Below are positions 12,661 to 24,845 of a stretch of 24,845 bases of DNA, piece after piece. The notes below the pieces were generated by a model. It was not told where the DNA came from and did no database searches. It saw only the letters and a program-made list of their open reading frames with translations. Source of the stretch: Candidatus Aerophobetes bacterium Ae_b3b (GTDB taxonomy: Bacteria > Aerophobota > Aerophobia > Aerophobales > AE-B3A); the NCBI GenBank assembly GCA_005223085.1, contig NJBP01000030.1:1-24845 (forward strand). The letters run 5' to 3'. The position numbers and the translations under genes are program-made. Numbering within the stretch: position 1 is the stretch's first letter; each line of letters opens with the position of its first letter.

Positions 12661-13257
12661 TCATCCTCTCAGGGGAAGATAAACTACGGTGGAAAGAATT
12701 AAAGGAGGCTCATGAGCCTTTTCATCCTGAGTGCTAATAGTTATCTTTACCGCTTCGGGGAGACTATCATCAGCATTATCCGGCGTTCCCCTTGTTGAAT
12801 CCCAGAATCCTTGCCATTGATCCTGATCCCAGTATGAAAAGGTCAAATTCAAGACCCGCTCGCCAATCATAGCCGTAGCTCCACCGGAAAAGGAATCCAG
12901 GTGAGTTCCTATTCTCCTCCGGAGTCTTTCTTGGGATAAACTGTATTCAATCTTCCGAAGATCATATTCCCCCGTGGTGTTAGGTGTGTTAGAGGCAGAA
13001 ACGAAGGTCAGCAAAGATTCATTGCCCTTGAATATGAGGTGAGGATCGCCCCGGCTGATAAAAGAAGCCTTTATTTCCCGACTCATTAAGTCTAAAATTA
13101 TCCGGGCATTTTGATACATCCTGGTGCGGGATTCTCCTTTCTGCCAAGCAGAGGAACTTCCCAAGAAGACCCGATAAAGAGCTCCCATCAAGATCACCAC
13201 AATGGCGCAGCTCACTATGATCTCAACCAGGGTGAAACCCCCTTCTTTTTCACTCAT
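12661..13257 (-). CDS. Prepilin-type protein, GspJ/PulJ-like minor pseudopilin
   Basis: The N-terminus 'MSEKEGGFTLVEIIVSCAIVVILMGALY' (split here into a short leader ending in Gly, then Phe+1 and Glu+5, then a hydrophobic helix) is the type III signal cleaved by prepilin peptidase. The remaining ~170 residues contain 'RIILDLMSREIKASFIS' and a beta-rich C-terminal part, as in GspJ-like pilins; length 198 is right for GspJ. An upstream ATG at 13269 adds four residues; neither has a clear ribosome site. Last gene in a four-gene pseudopilin run on the minus strand. Exact assignment to J is from order and length. Confidence 0.78.
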   Translation of the reverse strand: MSEKEGGFTLVEIIVSCAIVVILMGALYRVFLGSSSAWQKGESRTRMYQNARIILDLMSREIKASFISRGDPHLIFKGNESLLTFVSASNTPNTTGEYDLRKIEYSLSQERLRRRIGTHLDSFSGGATAMIGERVLNLTFSYWDQDQWQGFWDSTRGTPDNADDSLPEAVKITISTQDEKAHEPPLILSTVVYLPLRG

Positions 13258-13318
13258 TAGCTTTATCATAACTTATAAATTTTAGAGGGACCCCTCCTGG
13301 GGGCTTTTCCTCCCCTTT

Positions 13319-13759
13319 CTAATTGTACCTGGCTAAATAAGTAACTAGCTCTAAATACTGCCGAGGATTATTTCTATCTTCAGCCCCGGCTTTCCCATAT
13401 AAGACCCTCACCCTTACCTTCCGAAGATTGGGAGTTTCAGTATCCCACCACCCCACCTCGTAGCCATATCCCTGGTATTCTTCGAACTTCCCTTCCCCTA
13501 TCCCCTGACCGTTAGTATCCTCAGGAAGGGCCTCACTTAAATCATCATATCCTCTTCTTTTTATCTCCTCCATCAGTGTTTGCCCTAAAAGAGAAGCAGT
13601 TGAATACCTCTCTACTTTCTGCTCTATTTCAAGACCCAGAGGAAAAACTCTCACTATCATCAAAAGACCACCGGAAAGAATGGCCGTAGCCAGGATAACC
13701 TCAACCAGAGCAAAACCCATCCCAGCTAAATATGTCTGTTTCTTAAAACCCTTCTTCAA
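13319..13759 (-). CDS. Prepilin-type protein, GspI/PilV-like minor pseudopilin
   Basis: 146 residues. The leader 'MKKGFKKQTYLAGMG' precedes Phe+1 with 'FALVEVILATAIL' (Glu+5), followed by one hydrophobic helix and a soluble domain with 'TASLLGQTLMEEIKRRGYDD', a GspI-like helix. The start is TTG at 13759, overlapping the GspH stop as TTGA, so translation is probably coupled; no strong Shine-Dalgarno is visible. It belongs with the flanking H- and J-like genes in a pseudopilus tip complex of a type II secretion or type IV pilus-like machine. The ATPase, platform protein and secretin are not in this window. Confidence 0.78.
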   Translation of the reverse strand: MKKGFKKQTYLAGMGFALVEVILATAILSGGLLMIVRVFPLGLEIEQKVERYSTASLLGQTLMEEIKRRGYDDLSEALPEDTNGQGIGEGKFEEYQGYGYEVGWWDTETPNLRKVRVRVLYGKAGAEDRNNPRQYLELVTYLARYN

Positions 13760-14259
13760 TGTTTTTTCGGGTAAACCCTGATATAACCAGTAGTAGAGCT
13801 AATGGTAATGGTGTACCACCTTCCACTACCATTGTTCTTAAGATAGATAGAGCCAGTCTCAGCCGTTCCTTGAGGATAGAAAGAAAGACTGTCATCATCA
13901 GGATCATCAAATTCCACAATTCCATCCTCCTCCTCCCTTTTCCAAAGATCAGGATCAGCAAAGGCTACATTCTCTAAAAGTGAATGTTTTCCTTCTATCA
14001 CCATCTTCTCTTCGTCTTCAATCCAATATTTTCTTCGAGCCGGATCAAAGACAACCCTGTATTCTCTTCTTTTAGTTATGGAGAGCCGACGTGCCCATCT
14101 TAGAGTAGAAGCTATATCCTCGGCTGAGTTTTTCAGACGGCTCCGGGAGAGGAAACTACCCACAGACAAAATACCCAAAAAGACCACCACGCTCACTACA
14201 CCCAGTACCACAATCAGCTCTATCAAAGTGAATCCAGATGTAGATTTTCGAGGTATCAT
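13756..14259 (-). CDS. gspH: GspH/FimT-family pseudopilin
   Basis: 167 residues with leader 'MIPRKSTSG' and 'FTLIELIVVLGVVSVVVFLG', the canonical prepilin cleavage site and membrane helix. The middle reads 'AEDIASTLRWARRLSITKRREYRVVFD', which is the GspH/FimT helix plus first strands, and the C-terminus ends 'TGYIRVYPKK', typical of FimT-type proteins. It lies 9 bp after the GspG-like gene and overlaps the GspI-like gene by four bases. Predicted minor subunit of the pseudopilus, inserted in the inner membrane before assembly. Confidence 0.85.
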   Translation of the reverse strand: MIPRKSTSGFTLIELIVVLGVVSVVVFLGILSVGSFLSRSRLKNSAEDIASTLRWARRLSITKRREYRVVFDPARRKYWIEDEEKMVIEGKHSLLENVAFADPDLWKREEEDGIVEFDDPDDDSLSFYPQGTAETGSIYLKNNGSGRWYTITISSTTGYIRVYPKKH

Positions 14260-14268
14260 CCCTCTTAA

Positions 14269-14931
14269 CTACCAGTTATTAATATCATCCTCTAAATACC
14301 CATCAGATGAACCTGGACCATTGGCATTCAGCTCATCTATAACTCCATCCCCATCATCGTCTATCTCATTCTGGCAATAATCACCATCCTCAAACTCATC
14401 ACCGTCAACGCCACTGCTCCCGGTCTTTCCATCAGATCCCTTAGAATAGATATCGTAGCTACTTTTGTTATGAAAGGGAGGGGAGGTAAAAGGAATTCCA
14501 TCAAGATCAGCCGCATAGAAATAGATATGAACCCGGTCATTTCTCCCTTTATGCCAGGGATCGAGTAGCTCACCAGCCTCATTCACCTCACTTTTTTTGA
14601 ACTCCAGGTAAGGCCCGGTCCATTCCGGATCCTCCCAGATAGGGTCCTCAGGGGCAGGCGAGAGAGCTTCTCTTAGAGAAGCAGAACCCCTCTCATCAGG
14701 GGGATAATGTCCGGTGTCAATTTTATACATGCTTATGGCTGTCTCTAACTGAGCCATGAAAGACTTTGCGGCGGCTCTTTTTGCTCTTCCGGTAGCCTGA
14801 AGGAAGTTGATGGTGGCAACCGCCGATAAAATTGCAATAACTGCCACCACGATCAAAAGCTCCAATAAGGTAAAACCAGTCTCTTTTCTTAGCCTGCTCG
14901 CGACTTTATCCTGTCTTATCTTCCTCCTCAT
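14269..14931 (-). CDS. gspG: GspG-like major pseudopilin with Asp-rich C-terminus
   Basis: About 220 residues. After a basic leader ('MRRKIRQDKVASRLRKETG') comes 'FTLLELLIVVAVIAILSAVA', the prepilin signal, then 'KSFMAQLETAISMYKIDTGHYP', the GspG helix and its typical Tyr-Pro end. 'GPYLEF...DPWHKGRN' and 'YDIYSKGSDGK' match the GspG beta/calcium-binding region. Unusually, the C-terminus adds an EF-hand-like stretch, 'NEIDDDGDGVIDEL', and further acidic residues, probably an extra calcium site. The start is taken at ATG 14931, which gives a sensible leader; the frame runs up to 15033 but that extension has no leader character. First gene of the pseudopilin run. Confidence 0.82.
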   Translation of the reverse strand: MRRKIRQDKVASRLRKETGFTLLELLIVVAVIAILSAVATINFLQATGRAKRAAAKSFMAQLETAISMYKIDTGHYPPDERGSASLREALSPAPEDPIWEDPEWTGPYLEFKKSEVNEAGELLDPWHKGRNDRVHIYFYAADLDGIPFTSPPFHNKSSYDIYSKGSDGKTGSSGVDGDEFEDGDYCQNEIDDDGDGVIDELNANGPGSSDGYLEDDINNW

Positions 14932-14983
14932 CTTTCCATATAACAAGCGGTATTTCTTCCTCCCAGCTCTTTTATTGTATTGC

Positions 14984-15012
14984 ACCTTAATACATTCACT
15001 TAAGAAAGTCAA
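14984..15012 (-). promoter_or_regulatory. Possible promoter for the pseudopilin genes
   Basis: On the minus strand TTGACT (15007-15012), 17-base spacer, TAAGGT (14984-14989). The -35 is good, the -10 weak; TACAAT at 14974-14979 is a better -10 but lacks a matching -35. It lies between the TnpB element and the GspG-like gene. Confidence 0.3.
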
Positions 15013-15057
15013 CCCCAAAATCAGTCTTGACATATCACACTTGGGAATATAATTAGA

Positions 15058-15200
15058 ACAGTTATACCTCAGGAACGGTGACTACTCCCCTCCCTAACGG
15101 AAGGGGCTTCTTGGGACAAGTCCCAGGCTCTGTAGCCCCAGAGCCAAAATATTTCTGGAGGCATTAATATCTCTATGCAGACGAATACCACAAACGGGAC
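15058..15200 (-). ncRNA. Predicted TnpB guide RNA (omega/reRNA), 3' part
   Basis: Three hairpins lie back to back at the 3' end of tnpB: GGCTCTG/CAGAGCC (15126-15145, 7 bp), TGGGA/TCCCA (15112-15125) and CCCCTTCC/GGGAGGGG with a GTTA loop (15087-15106, 8 bp with one G-U pair). The last is followed on the minus strand by AGTAGTCAC (15078-15086), which resembles IS200/IS605 right ends. In this family the guide RNA overlaps the tnpB 3' end and its guide is the flanking DNA just past the right end, here about 15058-15077. The 5' limit given is arbitrary. Confidence 0.5.
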
Positions 15201-16212
15201 ATCTATGCCAACGAGTGGACAGTTTCTTTTTGACTACTGTCCCACATTGGCTACAGATTTGACTTGTGTCTCGTGGGTCAATTGCTATGAACCTACGGCC
15301 AGCCTCTTCCGCTTTACTCGCAAGTGCTTGGGCAAATTGATTCCACGCTGCATCTACGATAGATTTTGCTAGGAAGTGATTTCTCATCATCCCCCTAATG
15401 CTCAATTTCTCAATGCAAATAATACCAAAACGATTAACAATCTTCCGAGACTCTTGATGGATAAAATTATGACGCTTATTAGAAATTCTTTCGTGAGTAC
15501 GGACAATTACCTTTTTAGCCTTCTGTCTTTCAGGAGCACCTTCAGACTGTTTAGACAGTTTTCTTTGGGCTTTAGCAAGCGCTTTCTCATCAGTCTTAAA
15601 AAAACGGGGATTAACGATTTTTTCTTTAGTGGAAAGAGTAGCAAAATTCTCAAGTCCAACATCAATTCCAACGGCTTTATTGCTTTTCCGCAAGGGTTTC
15701 GGTTCATATTCAACAGATATGCAAGCATACCATTTGCCAGCTTGTCTTCTGATAGTGCAGGTTTTAGGAATACCGATAATAGGACGGTGAAGTTTAATCT
15801 TAATAGAACCTATTTTGGAAAGAAAAAGATGGTTATCATCAATCTTCCAGCCAAAGCTTGCTTGTTTATAGGTGAAACTGTCATAGCGGTCAAATCCCTT
15901 AAAACGAGGATAGCCAGGTTTTTGTCCTTGTTTAACTCTACGGAAAAAGTTTTGAAAAGCTTTGTCTATCCTATCAGCAACATTTTGGAGAACTTGAGAA
16001 TAGACTATGTTAAGAGAAGGACGCTTTTTCTTCAAGGCAGGAAGAGAATTGCATTGCTGAAAATAGGTGATGTTTCTTTTGTCTTCTTCCCAAGCATTTT
16101 TACGTTCTTCGAGGAAATGATTATAAAGCCAGCGGCACTCATTGAGCTGTTCTTGAAGAATCCGTTGTTGTTTCTTAGTCGGAAAGAGTCTATATTTAAG
16201 GGTTTTTCTCAT
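15094..16212 (-). CDS. tnpB: RNA-guided nuclease TnpB (IS605 OrfB)
   Basis: 372-residue TnpB, full length. The N-terminal OrfB helix-turn-helix region reads 'MRKTLKYRLFPTKKQQ'. The RuvC nuclease triad is complete: Asp184 in 'VGIDVGLENF', Glu268 in 'IICIEKLSI' and Asp348 in 'LHRDINASRN'. A C4 zinc ribbon (Cys320, Cys323, Cys338, Cys341) is inserted before the last Asp. TnpB proteins are programmable DNA nucleases guided by a transposon-end RNA that help retain the element; they are the ancestors of Cas12. The stop codon falls in the loop of the right-end hairpin. The start is ATG at 16212, with AAGG 12 bases upstream. All residues needed for activity appear present. Confidence 0.95.
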   Translation of the reverse strand: MRKTLKYRLFPTKKQQRILQEQLNECRWLYNHFLEERKNAWEEDKRNITYFQQCNSLPALKKKRPSLNIVYSQVLQNVADRIDKAFQNFFRRVKQGQKPGYPRFKGFDRYDSFTYKQASFGWKIDDNHLFLSKIGSIKIKLHRPIIGIPKTCTIRRQAGKWYACISVEYEPKPLRKSNKAVGIDVGLENFATLSTKEKIVNPRFFKTDEKALAKAQRKLSKQSEGAPERQKAKKVIVRTHERISNKRHNFIHQESRKIVNRFGIICIEKLSIRGMMRNHFLAKSIVDAAWNQFAQALASKAEEAGRRFIAIDPRDTSQICSQCGTVVKKKLSTRWHRCPVCGIRLHRDINASRNILALGLQSLGLVPRSPFR

Positions 16213-16603: not shown

Positions 16604-16619
16604 TGGCACAGAAGTTGCT
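16604..16619 (+). promoter_or_regulatory. Sigma-54 (RpoN) promoter of the peptide/exopolysaccharide locus
   Basis: TGGCACAGAAGTTGCT matches the -24/-12 consensus TGGCACRNNNNTTGCW at every defined base, with the correct GG-to-GC spacing. The predicted start is near 16630, giving a 25-nt leader with AAGGGG (16643-16648) ahead of the ATG at 16655. Transcription would need RpoN and an AAA+ activator, neither of which is in the window. Confidence 0.85.
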
Positions 16620-16654
16620 CCTTTGAAAAACAAATCACGGCTAAGGGGAAACCA

Positions 16655-17041
16655 ATGGAAAAAAACCTTAAACAAATCCTTATTGTGGACGATGAGGCTA
16701 ATGTAAGAGTGGTGTTCTCGGATGTTCTAAGAAGGGAAAGCTACATAGTCAAAGTGGCCAAAGATGGTCCTGAAGCCATAAAAGCAGTAGATGAGGAGAC
16801 CTTCGATCTTGCTCTGGTTGATCTTAGAATGCCCTGCATGGATGGAATTGAGGTTTTGGAGAATATTAAGAAAAGAAAGCCTCAAATTCCCGTCATTATT
16901 TATACGGGATACGGTTCGATAACCACCGCAGTGGAGGCTATGAGGAAAGGAGCCGCCGACTATCTTAATAAGCCATTTTCTCCCCATGAGCTAAAATCAA
17001 GTATTAGAAAAGCACTAGAAGGAGCAGAGCAACGCAATTGA
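16655..17041 (+). CDS. Single-domain response regulator (receiver only)
   Basis: 128 residues forming one CheY-like receiver: the acidic pocket 'ILIVDDEA' (Asp12, Asp13), the phospho-acceptor Asp56 in 'LALVDLRMP', the switch Thr84 in 'IIYTGYGS' and Lys106 in 'YLNKPF'. No DNA-binding or AAA+ output follows, so it must act through protein contacts or as a phosphate relay. Sequence around the switch ('TTAVEAMRKGAADYL') is NtrC-receiver-like. The ATG at 16655 has AAGGGG six bases upstream; an ORF extension to 16586 would start before the sigma-54 promoter and is rejected. First gene of the plus-strand locus, 34 bp ahead of the tyrosine kinase gene. No sensor kinase is nearby. Confidence 0.92.
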   Translation: MEKNLKQILIVDDEANVRVVFSDVLRRESYIVKVAKDGPEAIKAVDEETFDLALVDLRMPCMDGIEVLENIKKRKPQIPVIIYTGYGSITTAVEAMRKGAADYLNKPFSPHELKSSIRKALEGAEQRN

Positions 17042-17075
17042 AGGGTGTCCTCATTGCCTTAGGGAAGGTAAAGCT

Positions 17076-18713
17076 ATGTATCGAGAAGAAGAAAGCGTTG
17101 AACTTCGCCAATACTGGGAAGTTCTTTGGCGACACAAATGGATCGTTCTTCTGGCAGTAGTTGTCGTTTTTGTGGGGACTATGATTTTTACCTATCGACA
17201 AGCCCCCGTTTATAGAGCATCAAGCAAGATTCTCATCAATCCCCCTCCCTCTCTTTACCCTTACACCGCGCCGGGACAGATTTTGACCTCTCAGGGTCTA
17301 CCTTATTCCCGGGATCTACCATATTACATTAACTATCTGGAAAACTACAGGGTCTGGCTGACCAGCGAAACCATGATGGATAAGATCATAGAGCGGGTAA
17401 AGTCCCTCTATCCTGAGTCGGAAGAAATACCGTTCAGTATGGGGGCCAGCGTAATCAGAGACACCAGCATTTTCGCTATCGGAATTGAATCCGGCGACCC
17501 CGAGCTATGTAAAGTAGCAGCCAATGCCACCGCCCAAGTTTTGGTGGAAGAAAACCAGAGAATGTTCGCCGCCGGCCTAAAAACGGCCAGCGAAATGATG
17601 AAAAAACAGATTCAAACCCCTTTAGAAGAGTTAAGTAAACTTCTGCCCGGCTCAGAGTTACCAGGCAAAGGCGTAGGTACAACGAAAGGCGAAAAACCAG
17701 AAAGTCAATTATGGCAGGCCGCTCAGCTCAACAACGTCCGTATTATGGATTATGCTAAAACTCCTCGCTCTCCCATAAAACCTCGCAAAAAGCTAAATGC
17801 CATGTTAGGACTACTGGTGGGATTTATGTTAGGAGGTGGCCTAGCATTCTTACTAACATACCTGGATACCTCTGTTCGAACTATTGAAGATGTAGAAAAA
17901 TACTTTTCCTGGCCGGTTTTGGGTATTATTCCCCGATTTGATCGCACTAATGACGAGCCTTCCGGAAAGACTTCTCCCTCAGAAATTGAACCAGTGGTAA
18001 GTAAATATCCAAAATCAGTCTCTGCTGAGGCCTACCGAACCTTAAGAACCAACATTCAACTCTCCAATCTGGATCACCCACCCAGATTTTTAGTGATAAC
18101 CAGTGCCGGTCCCCTGGAAGGAAAATCAACCACCGCCCTTAATCTGGCGCTGGCTTTGGCCCAAAGAGAAAGTAAGGTTCTCTTAGTCGACGGTGACCTG
18201 CGAAAGTCCACTATTCACAAAGCCCTACACTTAGATAACTCTACCGGACTAGCCGATTCAATCCTTAATCACGGCAGCCTGGAAGCAGCCATTAAGCGGC
18301 TTGATAGCGTGGCTAACCTATCGGTTTTAACCAGTGGATCGGCGCCGTCTAACCCTTCTGAGCTTTTAGGGTCGAGCGGGATGAGGTCATTGGTGGAGCA
18401 AGTAAAAAAAGAGTATGACTATGTGGTCTTTGACACCCCACCTCTTATGTCCGTTAGCGATGGCGCTGTTTTAGCCTCCCAGGCTGATGGAATCCTAATA
18501 GTTATCAGCCCCGGCAAATTAAGAAGAGAAATCGCCCGTCATACCAAAGAGCTACTTGACCGAATTGGGACTCCTGTCCTGGGTTGTGTCCTCAACGGTG
18601 TCGAGCCCAGTCACAGCAATTACTATTACTATTATCATTACTACCATTCCTACGCTGATTCAGAAGGAAAAGAAACCATCCGCGAGCGAAAAAAGAAAAA
18701 GAAAAATTTGTAG
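17076..18713 (+). CDS. Wzc-like polysaccharide co-polymerase/tyrosine autokinase
   Basis: 545 residues, one membrane protein combining a Wzz-type chain-length domain and a BY-kinase. TM1 is at about 22-40; a periplasmic part follows; the 'PRSPIKPRK' motif precedes TM2 (about 240-263). The cytosolic kinase has Walker A 'SAGPLEGKSTT' (343-353), Walker A' 'LLVDGDLRK' with Asp372 and Asp374, Walker B 'VVFDTPP' with Asp453, and a C-terminal tyrosine cluster from residue 516 ('NYYYYYHYYHSY'). BY-kinases regulate export of capsule or exopolysaccharide by cycles of autophosphorylation. The periplasmic region is short compared with Wzc of about 720 residues. The start has GGGAAGG seven bases upstream. 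Its presence in a sigma-54 unit recalls exosortase-linked EPS loci. Confidence 0.93.
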   Translation: MYREEESVELRQYWEVLWRHKWIVLLAVVVVFVGTMIFTYRQAPVYRASSKILINPPPSLYPYTAPGQILTSQGLPYSRDLPYYINYLENYRVWLTSETMMDKIIERVKSLYPESEEIPFSMGASVIRDTSIFAIGIESGDPELCKVAANATAQVLVEENQRMFAAGLKTASEMMKKQIQTPLEELSKLLPGSELPGKGVGTTKGEKPESQLWQAAQLNNVRIMDYAKTPRSPIKPRKKLNAMLGLLVGFMLGGGLAFLLTYLDTSVRTIEDVEKYFSWPVLGIIPRFDRTNDEPSGKTSPSEIEPVVSKYPKSVSAEAYRTLRTNIQLSNLDHPPRFLVITSAGPLEGKSTTALNLALALAQRESKVLLVDGDLRKSTIHKALHLDNSTGLADSILNHGSLEAAIKRLDSVANLSVLTSGSAPSNPSELLGSSGMRSLVEQVKKEYDYVVFDTPPLMSVSDGAVLASQADGILIVISPGKLRREIARHTKELLDRIGTPVLGCVLNGVEPSHSNYYYYYHYYHSYADSEGKETIRERKKKKKNL

Positions 18714-18771
18714 CCCTGGCTGTAAACCTCTCAGGAACCACATTGGAAGGAAAGGGAGGTAAGTAGAGGTA

Positions 18772-19068
18772 ATGAATTACTTGACGAAATCCTTTGTCAA
18801 GGACCCCAACATCGTTTCCAGAAAAATTGCTGGTGAGGTTATCTTGGTTCCTATTAGAAACAATGTAGGAGACTTAAAAAATATTTACACTCTAAATGGA
18901 GTGGCTACACGAATCTGGGAACTCATAGACGGCAAAAGGCAACCCGAGGATATAAAAAAGGTAATTTTAGAGGAATACGAGATAGAGGAAGAAGAGGCTG
19001 AAAAGGATTTGCTGGAATTTTTATCTCAACTAAAAGAAATAAAGGCAATCGTAGCCAGTGATGTATAA
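18772..19068 (+). CDS. PqqD-family peptide chaperone (RiPP recognition element)
   Basis: 98 residues matching PqqD-like RiPP recognition elements: 'NIVSRKIAGEVILVPIRN' (beta strands), 'IYTLNGVATRIWELIDGKRQPEDI' (helix with the family-typical 'LN..A..IWE.IDG'), then 'EEYEIEEEEAEKDLLEFLSQL'. Such proteins bind the leader of a precursor peptide and present it to a radical SAM enzyme. It lies 58 bp after the tyrosine kinase gene and 11 bp before the radical SAM gene. A ribosome site (GGGAGG, with AGAGG closer) precedes the ATG. No other pqq genes are nearby, so PQQ synthesis is not implied. Confidence 0.92.
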   Translation: MNYLTKSFVKDPNIVSRKIAGEVILVPIRNNVGDLKNIYTLNGVATRIWELIDGKRQPEDIKKVILEEYEIEEEEAEKDLLEFLSQLKEIKAIVASDV

Positions 19069-19079
19069 CTCGAATAAGT

Positions 19080-20261
19080 GTGAAGAAGGGAAGGGAATTT
19101 CAGGTGGAATGCCCTTATATTTCTCAAATTAGGTATGGTGAATTTGGCAAACGTATCCACAATAAGGCAGTAATTAAAAGGATTCCAATTAATGGGTCAA
19201 TCGAACCTACTTTTCGCTGTAACCTTCGCTGTGCTCACTGCTACTGCAATTTGCCCTTAAACGACAAAGATGCACGTGAGAAAGAACTGAAAGCCAAAGA
19301 AATCTTCGATATCCTAGATCAAATTGCAGAAGCTGGATGTCTGTGGCTCCTCATAACTGGAGGAGAGCCTCTGGTGCGTGAAGATTTCTTAGATATTTAT
19401 ACTTACGCAAAAAAGAAAGGATTCATCATTACGCTGTTTACTAATGGAACACTTCTCACTCCCCAAATTGCTGATTATTTAGCCGAATGGCCACCATTCG
19501 CTGTAGAGATCACCCTATATGGTATAACTAAAGAGACTTATGAAAAAGTGACCCAAACTCCTAATTCTTTTGAACGCTGCGTAAGAGGCATTAACTTACT
19601 CTTGCAACGAAAGATCCCTTTGAGACTGAAAACTATGGTAATGAAATTAAACCAAGACCAGGTCTGGCAAATAAAAGAATACGCCGAAGAATTAGGGGTG
19701 GAATTTCGTTTTGATTCAGTACTTAATCCTAGATTAGACGGGTCCAAAGATCCTTGTGATTTGAGATTATCTCCCGAAGAGGTTGTGGAGTTAGATTTGG
19801 CTGATAAGAAAAAATTTACTCAATGGCAGGAGTTCTCTAGCAAATTCCGGGAACCTGTTGGGTCTGACAAGCTTTATTATTGCCTGGCAGGCATTTCTTC
19901 ATTCCATATAGATCCGTATGGAAAGTTGAGTGTCTGCATGATGTCGCGTTTTCAGAATTGTGATCTACACAATAATTCGTTTCGTGAGATGTGGAATCAC
20001 CGTATCCCTCAGTTTTTAGATTTGAAACCCGTGCGTAGTTATCCATGCGGTGAATGCGACCTAATATCACTATGTGGTCAATGTCCGGGCTCGGCCTGGC
20101 TAGAGACAGGCAGTCCCGAAACTCCGGTTCAATATCTATGTCAGTTGGCTCACTTAAGAGCACGAGCGTTTAGAAAGGAGATAAATGAAAAAAATGGCCA
20201 AAAAGTCGAAGTCTGTGAAAGTAAAAAAGCCGTATCAGAAACCACTAATAAATCAAGTTAA
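19080..20261 (+). CDS. Radical SAM/SPASM peptide-modifying enzyme
   Basis: 393 residues. The radical SAM cluster motif 'CNLRCAHC' (Cys47, Cys51, Cys54) binds the SAM-cleaving [4Fe-4S]; 'LITGGEPLVREDF' is the SAM-binding GGE motif. The C-terminal SPASM domain has Cys268, 'GKLSVC' (Cys286), 'CGECDLISLCGQC' (323, 326, 332, 335) and Cys354, enough for two auxiliary clusters. Such enzymes install thioether, C-C or similar cross-links on RiPP precursors. The GTG at 19080 has no clear ribosome site; GTG at 19104 after GGGAAGGGAA is an alternative start. The conserved domain ends near residue 367, yet the frame runs on for about 25 residues over the start of the peptide gene (77-nt overlap). Confidence 0.93.
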   Translation: MKKGREFQVECPYISQIRYGEFGKRIHNKAVIKRIPINGSIEPTFRCNLRCAHCYCNLPLNDKDAREKELKAKEIFDILDQIAEAGCLWLLITGGEPLVREDFLDIYTYAKKKGFIITLFTNGTLLTPQIADYLAEWPPFAVEITLYGITKETYEKVTQTPNSFERCVRGINLLLQRKIPLRLKTMVMKLNQDQVWQIKEYAEELGVEFRFDSVLNPRLDGSKDPCDLRLSPEEVVELDLADKKKFTQWQEFSSKFREPVGSDKLYYCLAGISSFHIDPYGKLSVCMMSRFQNCDLHNNSFREMWNHRIPQFLDLKPVRSYPCGECDLISLCGQCPGSAWLETGSPETPVQYLCQLAHLRARAFRKEINEKNGQKVEVCESKKAVSETTNKSS

Positions 20262-20373
20262 GCTTGCCACCGATGAGATGCTCATAGCCGGTTGCAAAAT
20301 GGGGGGTGGAACAGTCTTCAGTCCCAACAACACCAACTGTCAGCCAGCCAAGTGTGTGGACCCAGGGACATAG
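20185..20373 (+). CDS. Putative RiPP precursor peptide (62 aa, three Cys)
   Basis: The ATG at 20185 follows AAGGAG by four bases, inside the 3' end of the radical SAM gene but in another frame. The product has a basic, Lys-rich leader ('KKPYQKPLINQVKLATDEML'), then 'IAG', then a Gly/Asn/Cys-rich core 'CKMGGGTVFSPNNTNC' and 'QPAKCVDPGT' (Cys37, Cys52, Cys57). The leader style 'KPYxKPxIxxVxLxxDE' and the small-residue step before the first Cys fit precursors for PqqD/SPASM systems. The C-terminal residue is Thr, notable beside a kinase-like gene. An imperfect inverted repeat (CGGA 20374-20377, TCCG 20395-20398) follows the stop and may reduce readthrough into the next gene. The function of the mature peptide is unknown. 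Confidence 0.75.
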   Translation: MKKMAKKSKSVKVKKPYQKPLINQVKLATDEMLIAGCKMGGGTVFSPNNTNCQPAKCVDPGT

Positions 20374-20439
20374 CGGACTTATTCGAGGGAATTATCCGGC
20401 ACACAACCAACCGAAAGAATCGGTAACCTTAAGGAAAAT

Positions 20440-21333
20440 TTGTTGAAGTCTATGAAACAGTTGAGCAGCTTCACATTAGAGGTAGCAGAGATTGTTTTCT
20501 GCATCAGTAGCGATTTTCCATTTGATGGCTCAAATTTTGGAAAGGTATACGATGATTTTCTCTCTGAGAAAAAGGCCAACGTTTGTATTCATGTTCAACG
20601 GAACGCGGTCCCTTCGCTTAATATCAAAAAAGGTAAATTGGTCTTGGATTCTGGCAAGACCTGGAGTGTGTATGAAAGCCAACAAAAGTACATTTTCACT
20701 TTTAAATCACCCGCCTTAGGACAGATACCTTACAGCGTCGCCGTTTTTACACCTACCTTCCACAGAGGTAAAGTCTACATACGACCCGTGACATCCCAGG
20801 ACAAGCTTTTACCCAATCCTATGCTCTATCCCCTTTTTGAATTGTTAATGATTAACCTCCTATGGCGAAGATATGGACTTATGTTCCATGGCTGCGGAAT
20901 TAACAGCAGTGGATGTGGGTATTTATTTTTGGGTAATTCAGCCCATGGTAAGTCCACCACTGCTAGACTATGGGCTGAAGACCGAGGTACAGTTCTTAAC
21001 GATGATAGAATTGTGGTAAGAGAAAAGGGAAGAAAGTTCTGGATGTACGGTACGCCCTGGCACGGGGACTTTACCAAAGTCTCATCCCAAAGGATACCAA
21101 TTCACAAAATATTCTTTTTGCGACATGGAAAAGAAAACTCAGCAGTTCCTAGGGAAGGAATAAAAGCAGTCTCACTGCTACTCACCAGATGCTTCCCCCC
21201 CATTTGGGATAAGAAGGGGATGAGCTTCACTGTGGATTTTTGCCGTCGTCTGGTAGAGAAGGTACCATGCTATGAACTGGATTTTGTGCCAGATGAGAAA
21301 GTAGTAGATTTTGTGAAAGGGGTCAGGTCTTGA
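20440..21333 (+). CDS. HPr kinase-like (HprK-related) protein
   Basis: 297 residues. After a variable N-terminal half, the HprK-type core is clear: 'MFHGCGI' (His150), P-loop 'LGNSAHGKSTTARLW' (Lys171), 'LNDDRIVV' (Asp188, Asp189) and 'GTPWHGD'. HprK homologues in RiPP and exosortase-linked loci are thought to phosphorylate a peptide or sugar rather than HPr; in paeninodin-type lasso loci the homologue phosphorylates the C-terminal Ser. No HPr gene is here. The start is probably TTG at 20440 or 20443, after AAGGA; ATG 20452 is further from the ribosome site. The stop codon lies in a repeat copy (21320-21343). Confidence 0.87.
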   Translation: MLKSMKQLSSFTLEVAEIVFCISSDFPFDGSNFGKVYDDFLSEKKANVCIHVQRNAVPSLNIKKGKLVLDSGKTWSVYESQQKYIFTFKSPALGQIPYSVAVFTPTFHRGKVYIRPVTSQDKLLPNPMLYPLFELLMINLLWRRYGLMFHGCGINSSGCGYLFLGNSAHGKSTTARLWAEDRGTVLNDDRIVVREKGRKFWMYGTPWHGDFTKVSSQRIPIHKIFFLRHGKENSAVPREGIKAVSLLLTRCFPPIWDKKGMSFTVDFCRRLVEKVPCYELDFVPDEKVVDFVKGVRS

Positions 21334-21343
21334 TTTTTGAATT
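21320..21343 (+). repeat. Inverted-repeat copy 1 (24 nt)
   Basis: Core CAGGTCTTGATTTTTGAA (21324-21341) is repeated exactly in reverse complement at 23535-23552; over 24 nt the two copies differ at two positions. This copy supplies the stop codon of the HprK-like gene. Confidence 0.75.
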
Positions 21344-21380
21344 ATTTCTCTGATCCTCTGCTCCATGTAGAGCCCTCATA

Positions 21381-21896
21381 ATGCCGAAGAAAACAGAAAC
21401 ACTGAACTTAAAAAGAGAGGATTTTGCCTCTATTGCTCAAGAGGTGCTGGGTCGCGGAAGAGCCCTCAGATTTAAAGCCAAGGGAGGAAGCATGTCTCCC
21501 TTTATTCGAAACGGAGATGTGGTAGAAGTAGTGTCGGTCAATGGCAAGATAAATCTCGGAGATATCATCCTCTACCGCTCTTCCTACGGGAACCCGGTTG
21601 TCCATAGAGTGATCCGGAGGAGCAAAGAAAGCGTCATCACCAAAGGAGACTCTTTACCCAGCTCTGACCAGCCCGTGCTATCTAGGCAGGTGCTGGGCCG
21701 CGTGGTAACTATACAAAAAAATGGATGGCGCATAAGACTGGGGACTCCGACAGGAAGACTCCTCAATGTTCTCCTGGCTACAATCTCTCCTTTTTCTTTT
21801 CTCATTTATCCTTCGCTTAGATTATTGAAAAAACCTATTAGTCCCTTTACCAGTAATGCATCAAACCCTTGTCTCTTCAGGCTTCCTCATAGCTAA
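21381..21896 (+). CDS. S26-family signal peptidase-like protein
   Basis: 171 residues. The motif 'GGSMSPFIRNGDVVEV' holds the nucleophile Ser37 of signal peptidase I-like enzymes (SMxP). 'NPVVHRVI' (His75) and 'VITKGDS' (Asp90) point to the Ser/His/Asp type seen in SipW/Sec11 rather than the Ser/Lys bacterial type. There is no N-terminal anchor; instead a hydrophobic stretch (about 127-149) near the C-terminus could be the membrane segment. It may remove the leader of the peptide encoded upstream, or process another exported protein. The start has no strong ribosome site. It is 12 bp ahead of the nucleotidyltransferase gene. Confidence 0.87.
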   Translation: MPKKTETLNLKREDFASIAQEVLGRGRALRFKAKGGSMSPFIRNGDVVEVVSVNGKINLGDIILYRSSYGNPVVHRVIRRSKESVITKGDSLPSSDQPVLSRQVLGRVVTIQKNGWRIRLGTPTGRLLNVLLATISPFSFLIYPSLRLLKKPISPFTSNASNPCLFRLPHS

Positions 21897-21908
21897 AGGA
21901 ATAAATCC

Positions 21909-23117
21909 ATGTATATCCGTCCCGAAGATCAGCTGTTACTGCAGTGTGCGAGAACTAAATTAAACGAGGATGACCAAGATAAAATCACGAAACTGGTAAA
22001 TAATGGCCTGGACTGGGACTATCTCTTGCAGATGGGCAAAGATCATAGTCTGGGACCATTGTTATACTATCACCTGCGCCAGATTAACGATGATCATCAA
22101 ATTCCTCAGTCCATTATGAATCAGTTCCATGACATTTACCATGGCAATCTGGCCCGGAATCTCCTTTTATATGATGAGTTAAGCCGGGTTTTAAAATCCT
22201 TCGAGGAAAAAGAAATCCCGGTGGTGGTGGTCAAAGGACTAGCTCTAGCAGAGCTCGTTTATAAAAACATTGCCCTGAGGCCAATGGCAGACGCTGATTT
22301 ATTGGTTCAAAAGAGAAGCTTACCAGAAGTAATGAAAACTCTTTTCAAACTGGGATTCGAAATACTACCTGAAGAGAAGCGGATAACCATAAAATACATG
22401 AATGAATTGCATCTGGTCAAGCATCAGGAAAATGTAAAGTGGCTTGCGAGTCTAATAATTAATATCCACTGGGATCTGACAGCTCCGATTAGATTTAAGG
22501 GGACAACAAAAACCGATCCCCAACAAATGATGTCAAGAGCTCGGCCAGCAAGAATAGCTTACAGTAATATTTTGCTTATGACACGGGAAGACCAAATACT
22601 GTGGGTTATTTATCATGCCACTTTTCAGCATCCTTTTATTGGCCTTCTCCAACTGTGTGATGTGGCTGAATTAATCAAACTAAAAGAAAATAAGCTTGAT
22701 TGGCAGTCCTTGCTGAAGATCTCAAAAAATAGAAGAATAGCAAGTGCTACTTACTACCTGCTCTCTTCGGCTAAAAAACTTCTGGGAGCTCCTATCCCCA
22801 ACTGGGTACTCCAAGCTCTTGCCCCAAACCTACTTAAGAGAAGCCTATTGGATACTTTGGTCATCAAAAGCGGCTTTTTAATCAAGTGCCCGACTCACTC
22901 GGTAGCCTCTCGATATCTTCTTCAGATATTGATGTTGGATAAAATGATCGATACACTCTCTTTGCTCTGTAAGGCAGTCTTTCCTCCTCCTAACTGGCTT
23001 GCGGCTTATTATGATCATACGAGGTCAAAAAACCTATATTTCTCCCACTTTATCAACCTTTTCACAATCCTCCTGGCCGGAATAAGAGATATCCTAAAAG
23101 TCTCAGGCAAAAGGTAA
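21909..23117 (+). CDS. PF14907-type nucleotidyltransferase family protein
   Basis: 402 residues. The key block around residues 103-135 reads 'VVVVKGLALAELVYKN' and 'RPMADADLLVQ', the signature (KG...R...DxDLLV) of the uncharacterised nucleotidyltransferase family NTP_transf_5. A later 'INIHWDLT' fits the family's 'xHW.l' element. Homologues sit next to HprK-like genes in lasso peptide and exosortase-related loci; their substrate is not established and could be the peptide. AAAGGA lies eight bases upstream of the ATG. Last gene of the tight plus-strand run. No transglutaminase or asparagine synthetase gene accompanies it. Confidence 0.88.
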   Translation: MYIRPEDQLLLQCARTKLNEDDQDKITKLVNNGLDWDYLLQMGKDHSLGPLLYYHLRQINDDHQIPQSIMNQFHDIYHGNLARNLLLYDELSRVLKSFEEKEIPVVVVKGLALAELVYKNIALRPMADADLLVQKRSLPEVMKTLFKLGFEILPEEKRITIKYMNELHLVKHQENVKWLASLIINIHWDLTAPIRFKGTTKTDPQQMMSRARPARIAYSNILLMTREDQILWVIYHATFQHPFIGLLQLCDVAELIKLKENKLDWQSLLKISKNRRIASATYYLLSSAKKLLGAPIPNWVLQALAPNLLKRSLLDTLVIKSGFLIKCPTHSVASRYLLQILMLDKMIDTLSLLCKAVFPPPNWLAAYYDHTRSKNLYFSHFINLFTILLAGIRDILKVSGKR

Positions 23118-23245: not shown

Positions 23246-23285
23246 TTTGGGAATTAAATAATCTTTGACAAAAGGAGGGGAAAGA

Positions 23286-23510
23286 ATGGGGTCAAAAGTC
23301 TTAAAAATGTTGGCTTACTTTTTCGGAATAGTTGCCGGAGTAAGTCTGGTAACTGGGGTTATATTACGATTAGCTAAAGGGCCCTGGGGACCCTTTTTTT
23401 TGGGGATTGTACCCCGCTCTTACGTGCTCTTTGCCCAAGTTTGTCTCTTGTTTGCCATCGCTCTTGGGGTAGCTACTTTACTAGAAAGGAAGACAAAAGA
23501 GAAAAAGTAA
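23286..23510 (+). CDS. Small membrane protein, two predicted helices
   Basis: 74 residues with hydrophobic segments around 'MLAYFFGIVAGVSLVTGVIL' and 'YVLFAQVCLLFAIALGVATLL', separated by a short Gly/Pro-rich loop 'KGPWGPFFLGIVPRS', and a Lys-rich C-terminus, giving a helical hairpin with a basic cytosolic tail. The ATG at 23286 follows AAAGGAGGGG closely; a TTG at 23265 is less likely. It has its own possible promoter and lies inside the segment bracketed by the inverted repeat. No family recognised; function unknown. Confidence 0.7.
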   Translation: MGSKVLKMLAYFFGIVAGVSLVTGVILRLAKGPWGPFFLGIVPRSYVLFAQVCLLFAIALGVATLLERKTKEKK

Positions 23511-23605: not shown

Positions 23606-23992
23606 TTACTCTGATCCCTTTTTCTCTTCTATAAAGATTACTTTTTCCAATCTTTCAAAATGTGGGTCGGAGGTCACTACTGAGCATTCTTCAGAAAGTG
23701 CAGTCGCATAAACCAAGGCATCAGCCATAGGAAGTTTATGCTTTAAACTAACATCTGCCGCGAAGAGCGCCAGGTTGGGTGTAAGGGGAACGATTTTTGT
23801 TTCATGAAGTCTAGCAACTAGTCGAAGGGCTGATTCCTCATCTAAAGCTTGCTTTAATTTCTTATAAACTTCATACACAATGACCACAGGGGTGATAACT
23901 TCATTTGAGGAACGAAGATATTCAGCGTATTTATCCGCCAATGGTCCTTCCCTAAGCCACTCAATCCATCCAAAGGAATCTACTACTATCAT
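23606..23992 (-). CDS. vapC: PIN-domain toxin, VapC-type ribonuclease
   Basis: 128 residues with the complete acidic PIN active site: Asp5 ('VVDSFGWIEWL'), Glu41 ('VIVYEVYKKL'), Asp91 ('LPMADALVYATA') and Asp109 ('VVTSDPHFE'). VapC toxins cleave specific tRNA or rRNA and halt translation when free of antitoxin. The ATG overlaps the vapB stop by four bases (ATGA), so the pair is translationally coupled, with the antitoxin first. The frame looks intact. It is convergent with the small membrane protein gene. Confidence 0.93.
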   Translation of the reverse strand: MIVVDSFGWIEWLREGPLADKYAEYLRSSNEVITPVVIVYEVYKKLKQALDEESALRLVARLHETKIVPLTPNLALFAADVSLKHKLPMADALVYATALSEECSVVTSDPHFERLEKVIFIEEKKGSE

Positions 23993-24195
23993 ATCCGTTC
24001 CTCATCTTCACGAATTTCCCTCATCTCTATTCCTTTTGCCATCCCCCGCAGTTCCTCCAGAGAAGGAACTGGGACTAGAGAAATGACCCCATTCTTGACT
24101 ATTACAGCAAACTTTTGGCCTTTCTCTAATCCAAGATTTTCTCTTACTTCTCTAGGTATCACAATCTGGTATTTGGGAGAAAGAACGACTTCCAT
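23989..24195 (-). CDS. vapB: AbrB/MazE-type antitoxin, VapB
   Basis: 68 residues. The N-terminal swapped-hairpin DNA-binding domain reads 'LSPKYQIVIPREVRENLGLEKGQKF', typical of SpoVT/AbrB antitoxins; the C-terminal part ('VPSLEELRGMAKGIEMREI') is the kind of extended segment that wraps the toxin. AGGAGG sits eight bases before the ATG at 24195. The complex usually represses its own promoter; a perfect-consensus promoter with a flanking inverted repeat lies just upstream. Confidence 0.93.
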   Translation of the reverse strand: MEVVLSPKYQIVIPREVRENLGLEKGQKFAVIVKNGVISLVPVPSLEELRGMAKGIEMREIREDEERI

Positions 24196-24519: not shown

Positions 24520-24845
24520 CTAATAATGGGTGAGACTTCCATCCTTTTTGGCCCTCCTTACCCCCACTTTAAAAACATAAATGCTAAAGGGTAGTAAAAC
24601 TACCGAAAACAAAGCCAGTATGAGTATGTCAAAGCCCAATGCCTGGAAAGAGTAGCTTTGCAGGAGTGCATGACGTATGGCCCTGAGGGAATAGGTAATG
24701 GGCAGAAAATAGGAGATCTTCTGCAGCCAACCGGGCAGAATAGTAATAGGAAAGAATACCCCCCCAAAAAGAGTGGAGAAACTGCCAATCAACCAATTTA
24801 AAGGGTTTCCCCGTTTAAAAACCATAATGAAGCTGGCCGATATAA
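24520..24845 (-). CDS. ABC-2 type transporter permease, 3' part
   Basis: The frame is open to the window edge, so the start lies outside; 108 C-terminal residues are visible. The pattern 'FKRGNPLNWLIG', 'LFGGVFFPITILPGWLQ', 'ISYFLPITYSLRAIRHALLQ' and a last hydrophobic helix 'ILILALFSVVLLPFSIYVF' is the typical C-terminal half of ABC-2 permeases, with the conserved 'P..LP..l..is..lP.ty..e..R' signature. Such permeases export polysaccharides, lipids or drugs with a partner ATPase, probably encoded upstream outside the window. The substrate is unknown. Confidence 0.9.
   Translation of the reverse strand, partial: ISASFIMVFKRGNPLNWLIGSFSTLFGGVFFPITILPGWLQKISYFLPITYSLRAIRHALLQSYSFQALGFDILILALFSVVLLPFSIYVFKVGVRRAKKDGSLTHY

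Follow-up and report, generated by a model that had tools for sequence, protein, structure and literature searches.

The locus at positions 16604-23117 of the window (the whole 24,845-nt stretch of DNA that was analysed, from Candidatus Aerophobetes bacterium Ae_b3b) was read as a peptide-maturation cassette whose product would act at the cell surface, with a probability of about 0.6. Its genes for a PqqD-like protein, a radical SAM/SPASM enzyme, a small peptide, an HprK-like kinase and an S26 peptidase are a real conserved cassette, beyond chance: the same genes, in the same order, recur in tens of unrelated genomes. The case for one precursor family with one conserved maturation cassette is strong, and that for a surface role of the peptide is moderate.

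Operon layout and local features

Eight plus-strand genes were placed behind an RpoN promoter by a first-pass annotation made from the letters of the window, and were found at or very near those places. The promoter is an exact match to the sigma-54 -24/-12 type (TGGCAC-N5-TTGCT, TGGCACAGAAGTTGCT; 16604-16619, plus strand) and lies 36 bp from the first gene, which encodes a stand-alone receiver domain of 128 aa (16655-17041; PF00072, Response_reg, 115 bits). It is followed on the same strand by genes for a Wzc-type polysaccharide tyrosine autokinase / chain-length protein of 545 aa (17076-18713; TIGR01007, 188 bits, cut-off 108) with the Pfam domains Wzz, GNVR and AAA_31 and a tyrosine cluster at its C-terminus, a PqqD-like leader-binding protein (RRE; 18772-19068; PF05402, 65.9 bits), a radical SAM/SPASM maturase (19080-20261; PF04055, 79 bits), a 62-aa precursor peptide (20185-20373), a putative HprK-like peptide kinase (20452-21333), an S26 peptidase of the Ser-His type (GGSMSP...HR; 21381-21896; TIGR02228, 55.3 bits, cut-off 51.85), which is the candidate leader peptidase, and a PF14907 nucleotidyltransferase (NTP_transf_5, KG...RPMxDxD; 21909-23117; 175 bits). 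Intergenic gaps are 11-78 nt, plus one overlap, of 77 nt, between the peptide gene and the 3' end of the SPASM gene; a Shine-Dalgarno sequence (AAGGAG) precedes the ATG of the peptide gene. The SPASM, HprK_C and S24/S26 domains scored under their Pfam cut-offs when the eight genes were scanned, and the PqqD-like protein under every NCBIfam PqqD cut-off. Despite the low Pfam scores, relatives keep the cysteines of SPASM and the residues needed for catalysis in HprK and S26.

Neither promoter nor receiver is supported as a general feature of the system, and both proved private to the window locus. No conserved sigma-54 site was found upstream of relatives (2 sites against 1.6 expected by chance; a -24/-12 site was common to 1 of 35 other upstream regions), and the site was rejected as a conserved cassette feature. 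The receiver was likewise rejected as a conserved partner, being missing from relatives' cassettes, and is a local addition; a recurrent upstream cluster first read as receivers consists mostly of HD-domain proteins. RpoN is encoded in the window's genome, and an RpoN-dependent PEP-CTERM gene acts in floc formation (PMC9850573), by analogy with which sigma-54 control of surface genes is plausible, no more; the role given to the site here is weakly held.

Downstream, the C-terminal part of an ABC-2 permease, a candidate exporter, is encoded on the minus strand (24520-24845; PF01061, 33.2 bits, cut-off 26.9), its gene interrupted by the contig edge. It is convergent to the cassette, as in 9 other loci, and probably belongs to the locus; the export route that it would provide is a weak assignment. 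A gene pair for a PIN-domain toxin and a MazE-like antitoxin (23606-24195, minus strand) separates the cassette from the ABC-2 gene, and an 81-aa predicted membrane protein without a family is encoded after the nucleotidyltransferase gene (23265-23510). An IS605 OrfB/TnpB-type gene lies directly 5' of the operon (15094-16212, minus strand), which is also adjoined by a run of type II pseudopilin-like genes (12661-15033, minus strand).

Conservation of the cassette and its precursor family

After alignment with two relatives, the window SPASM protein served as query against 84,980 species genomes. Relatives 33-70% identical to it were found in WOR-3, Omnitrophota, Nitrospinae, Nitrospirae, Aminicenantes, Desulfobacterales, Terriglobia, Lentisphaerae, Chloroflexi and others, with a match at E 1e-50 in 34 of 386 sampled genomes. 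Across 56 loci, usually with the gene order of the window, the SPASM gene (56) was accompanied by genes for PqqD (53), a precursor (50), an HprK-like protein (54) and S26 (54), and the proposed peptide-modification kit is borne out, SPASM relatives nearly always occurring with PqqD, a small Cys peptide, an HprK-like kinase and S26. The window was grouped with 18 others in the SPASM-protein tree (SH-aLRT 88; inner set of 7 at 96). The kinase/nucleotidyltransferase pair, whose constant absence beside SPASM relatives had been named as evidence against the proposal, was found: PF14907, present in 21 of the 56 loci and missing from many sister loci, is mostly present in the window's clade (14/19 vs 7/37 other loci). 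The ABC-2 permease was seen in 10/56 loci (7/19 in the window's clade vs 3/37 others). These neighbour-gene counts are lower bounds, the flanks being short in many loci.

The SPASM protein carries the radical SAM CxxxCxxC motif (C47, C51, C54) and the seven-cysteine SPASM pattern (C268, C286, C323, C326, C332, C335, C354). All 10 cysteines are kept in 46-48 of 48 relatives, and the chains of solved structure nearest to it are those of SkfB and PqqE. As expected of a SPASM-modified RiPP in general, cluster cysteines, an adjacent conserved precursor and a leader-binding RRE are present together. A variant cassette from Desantisbacteria has two insertions, an extra radical SAM protein and a PRMT-like methyltransferase (L029, 7233-8360 and 10523-11674).

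Precursor ORFs were chosen only by position (between the SPASM and HprK genes) and by the YxxP pattern; the C-terminal ending played no part in their selection. The resulting 43 peptides, the window's among them, share a leader (KxYxxPxI..V.L..EEAVL..CK), followed in most by two further cysteines in the core. Gly-Ser or Gly-Thr is the last pair of residues in 37/43, and the last residue is Ser or Thr in 42/43; among 4809 control ORFs of comparable size, 73 (1.5%) have a GS/GT ending. Invariant columns are Y, P, L, C37, K38, C52 and C57, with G61 and S62 at 90% or more. The window precursor consists of a leader (PYQKP..NQVKLATDEMLIAG) and a predicted core (CKMGGGTVFSPNNTNCQPAKCVDPGT; 20293-20370, plus strand) with C37, C52, C57 and a C-terminal Gly-Thr, so placed that Thr62 occupies the position of the family's Ser; it matches the family HMM at E 9e-19 and is present as a single copy in its own genome. 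Judged by their sequences, the precursors are one family, for which no name was found; NCBIfam held no model for it, and the viral contigs searched gave no match.

In the HprK-like protein, His146, the Walker A residues G166-K167-S168-T169 of its GxSxxGKST motif and Asp184-Asp185 are kept in 42-46 of 46 relatives. Its structural model (pLDDT 92.6) has a PEPCK/HprK-type fold (Z 14.2, rmsd 4.3, 238 residues), and the structures listed as matches are mainly PEP carboxykinases, with no lasso kinase among them, which carries no weight against such a kinase. Lasso kinases whose target is a C-terminal Ser use His-Lys-Asp-Asp as their catalytic motif (PMC9266682; PMC10368454), and a YxxPxL leader is also present in the precursors on which they act (PMC10368454). 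The C-terminal Ser/Thr is on these grounds a kinase site of moderate confidence, and a predicted rather than a certain one because the HprK-type lasso kinase BsfK phosphorylates Ser3 rather than a C-terminal residue (PMC10368454). The S26 Ser-His pattern is found in about 50 relatives, and the S26 and PF14907 domains are sometimes fused. The PF14907 protein has invariant G110, R124, D128 and D130 (DxD) and a model of Pol-beta-type NTase fold (Z 14.4 to MenT1, rmsd 3.0, 180 residues); the nucleotidyltransferase step and product suggested by analogy are weakly held.

Surface neighbours and precursors in trans

The envelope or exopolysaccharide link, which had been drawn from a single Wzc gene (the only surface gene within the window itself), is upheld by comparison. 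Genes for Wza, Wzc or an XrtA-type ATPase were found in 10/19 loci of the window's clade vs 2/37 others (p 1e-4 by Fisher's test, which ignores relatedness; the trait needs at least 4 changes on the tree), and in none of 27 distant SPASM loci. The counts for the two groups of the tree are again lower bounds, given the short flanks. Wza (Poly_export) is encoded directly before PqqD, within about 50 nt, in two loci (L043, L049), and close upstream of PqqD in a third (L065).

C25-domain proteins were found in 19/56 loci, with 18 among the 37 outside the window's clade. They are mostly giant and secreted and are encoded upstream of PqqD or fused to S26. Scored with the PorU sortase model, the C25 neighbours gave 256-364 bits and did not reach the cut-off of 420; PorU itself joins cargo to anionic lipopolysaccharide (PMC8545088). 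In Terriglobia, the S26 domain lies within a giant secreted ORF with a PorU-like C25 (L062, 12372-19766; L069, 12402-18737; and others), and these S26-C25 fusion proteins exceed 2000 aa. The C25 model gave no match in the window's genome, which is 88.6% complete, and readily matches other genomes. No paper joining C25 or PorU with radical SAM was found in the literature searched.

Precursors were also found away from cassettes. One genome (G057) has one cassette and ten precursor matches elsewhere, eight of them complete, with cores 93% identical and the first 16 leader residues 64% identical; each of the eight adjoins a secreted structural-type protein. None of the 10 matches is more than 1.6 kb from a shared C-terminal domain with the motif YKLEDxD. 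This domain has 27 matches in the genome, where it typically ends a large secreted protein, and the sequence within 2 kb of a copy makes up 2.7% of the genome. The nominal probability of this proximity was not used, since several of the copies probably arose by joint duplication. In a second genome (G202), this C-terminal domain of secreted proteins is encoded no more than 2 kb away from each of the 3 precursors, one of which also adjoins a C25 peptidase. In a third (G334), one precursor adjoins a PEP-CTERM protein and a C25 peptidase. An arrangement in which one maturase serves many substrates is reminiscent of GlyGly-CTERM/rhombosortase pairing (PMC3237569). The YKLEDxD domain (L156-L162 in G057, L180-L182 in G202) spans ~100 aa, often with a Lys-rich tail; no Pfam match covered it in the proteins scanned, and no copy was found in the window's genome (88.6% complete). 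In a further genome (G060; L163, 7164-7826), the precursor motif ends a 220-aa ORF whose true start may be further downstream.

These associations bear on the strongest alternative, that the product is a conventional radical SAM peptide of sactipeptide- or ranthipeptide-like type, either an antimicrobial or a signal, which the ABC-2 transporter would export, and that its exopolysaccharide and surface neighbours are incidental. An RRE, a SPASM enzyme, a three-Cys core, a kinase, a peptidase and an ABC transporter do resemble a RiPP cluster, and core length and sequence vary among precursors of the window's clade. The near-identical cores of G057, each beside a secreted structural-type protein, are nonetheless unlike a diversifying antibiotic, exopolysaccharide or C25 neighbours recur by clade, and no immunity gene was recognised; we consider this alternative unlikely, at somewhat better than one chance in five. 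The evidence suggests a cell-surface component rather than an antibiotic.

Proposed pathway and comparison with known systems

In the preferred reading of a surface-acting product, PqqD would bind the 62-residue precursor by its YxxP leader and present it to the SPASM enzyme, which would make a radical-dependent change in the three-Cys core. Thioether cross-links are the most likely outcome, the bond type being weakly assigned. The HprK-like kinase would then phosphorylate the C-terminal hydroxyl (Thr62 here, Ser in most relatives), as PadeK and ThcoK do on lasso precursors, and the PF14907 enzyme, found mainly in the exopolysaccharide-type clade, may extend the phosphate. S26 would remove the leader and the ABC-2 transporter export the product. 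Outside the inner membrane, the peptide would act with a surface polymer: in this clade a Wza/Wzc-linked exopolysaccharide, in sister clades large secreted proteins, on which PorU-like C25 enzymes probably act. We infer every chemical step, the order of the steps, the export and the function of the cassette.

A fuller version, put forward tentatively and with odds well short of even, is a surface-assembly system not described before, in which a SPASM-cross-linked, end-phosphorylated ribosomal peptide would provide surface polymers with an anchor, linker or cofactor. Proteins of the sister clades would be joined to the peptide via PorU-like C25 enzymes and via trans-encoded precursors, the latter paired with secreted proteins that have the shared C-terminal domain; the peptide of the window's clade would either become attached to exopolysaccharide or regulate it.

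Phosphorylation of the terminal Ser/Thr, if it occurs, would carry a tailoring reaction familiar from lasso peptides over to peptides modified by radical SAM enzymes. A surface role, if real, would mean that modified ribosomal peptides can be structural as well as antibiotics or cofactors, and would supply a candidate partner for many exopolysaccharide loci and giant secreted C25 proteins. One odd operon has in any case become a defined peptide family with testable residues in many mostly uncultured phyla.

Among the closest known systems is the SynChlorMet cassette (TIGR04248-TIGR04251), which likewise brings together PqqD, radical SAM/SPASM, an HprK-like protein, S26 and small YxxP peptides, and for which no paper was found in the literature searched. 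The window cassette might be a divergent and poorly scored member of that system, with ScmC as the best NCBIfam match of its HprK-like protein. Genuine ScmD, ScmE, ScmF and ScmC are, however, encoded on another contig of the same genome (139, 632, 604 and 302 bits, respectively), whereas the window genes fall far under the cut-offs (ScmC 27/125, ScmD 25/100, ScmE 81/400, ScmF 80/400 bits). SynChlorMet has two SPASM proteins (ScmE, ScmF) and the window one SPASM gene, and the precursors differ, with a Cys core and GS end here and an NGSLP end without terminal Ser there. Identity with SynChlorMet is judged improbable, at around one chance in ten; because its genes miss the cut-offs so widely, the window cassette is taken to work like SynChlorMet without being one. 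That cassette (L035, 13178-18048, on G000:C17) contains S26 and two small YxRP peptides with a common NGSLP motif. The same peptides, lying beside ScmC in the same genome and not ending in Ser, count against the surface-cassette reading. So do Wzc as the sole surface gene of the window, a genome in which neither C25 nor the YKLEDxD domain was found, the many sister loci that lack PF14907, and an ABC-2 gene that is truncated here and was seen in only 10 loci.

Less probable still is that the peptide supplies the material for a small redox cofactor or carrier, like PqqA for PQQ or MftA for mycofactocin: PqqD occurs with SPASM, PqqE is among the nearest solved structures and S26 could free a fragment, but the core, with its three Cys and terminal Ser/Thr, is conserved in full to its last residue, multiple precursors occur next to surface proteins, and none of the gene families recurring beside the cassette was recognised as a dedicated oxidoreductase.

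Kinase-tailored lasso peptides (paeninodin PadeK, ThcoK, SyanK, BsfK; PMC9266682, PMC10368454) share with this kind of cassette a YxxP leader, a separate PqqD-like RRE, an HprK-like kinase with His-Lys-Asp-Asp, a nucleotidyltransferase and a C-terminal Ser; they differ in that the window has a SPASM enzyme, S26 and a Cys-rich core, and no domain of a lasso cyclase (C protein) or B2 peptidase was found in the eight genes. The first-pass annotation had seen a radical SAM enzyme in the place of the cyclase. Cyclase and exosortase are indeed missing among the cassette genes, but the substitution is not new in kind because SynChlorMet has that build, and has it in the window's genome. Its overall interpretation held for the kit and the envelope link, and missed the ABC-2 exporter, the C-terminal Ser/Thr, SynChlorMet and the association with surface proteins. 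Sactipeptides, ranthipeptides and other SPASM-modified RiPPs offer a SPASM maturase with the full cysteine set and a Cys-containing core, to which the window adds kinase, S26, nucleotidyltransferase and surface-gene context.

Among surface sorting systems, PEP-CTERM/exosortase (PMC1569441) is similar in its exopolysaccharide genes with an XrtA-type ATPase, and differs in that no exosortase domain with PEP-CTERM substrates was found among the cassette genes; no paper joining PqqD with exosortase was found in the literature searched. Type IX secretion with PorU (PMC8545088) is similar in its C25 proteins and in having many secreted proteins with one common C-terminal domain, and differs from the window's genome, where no C25 was found. 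Set against both of these systems, the modified peptide is the new element.
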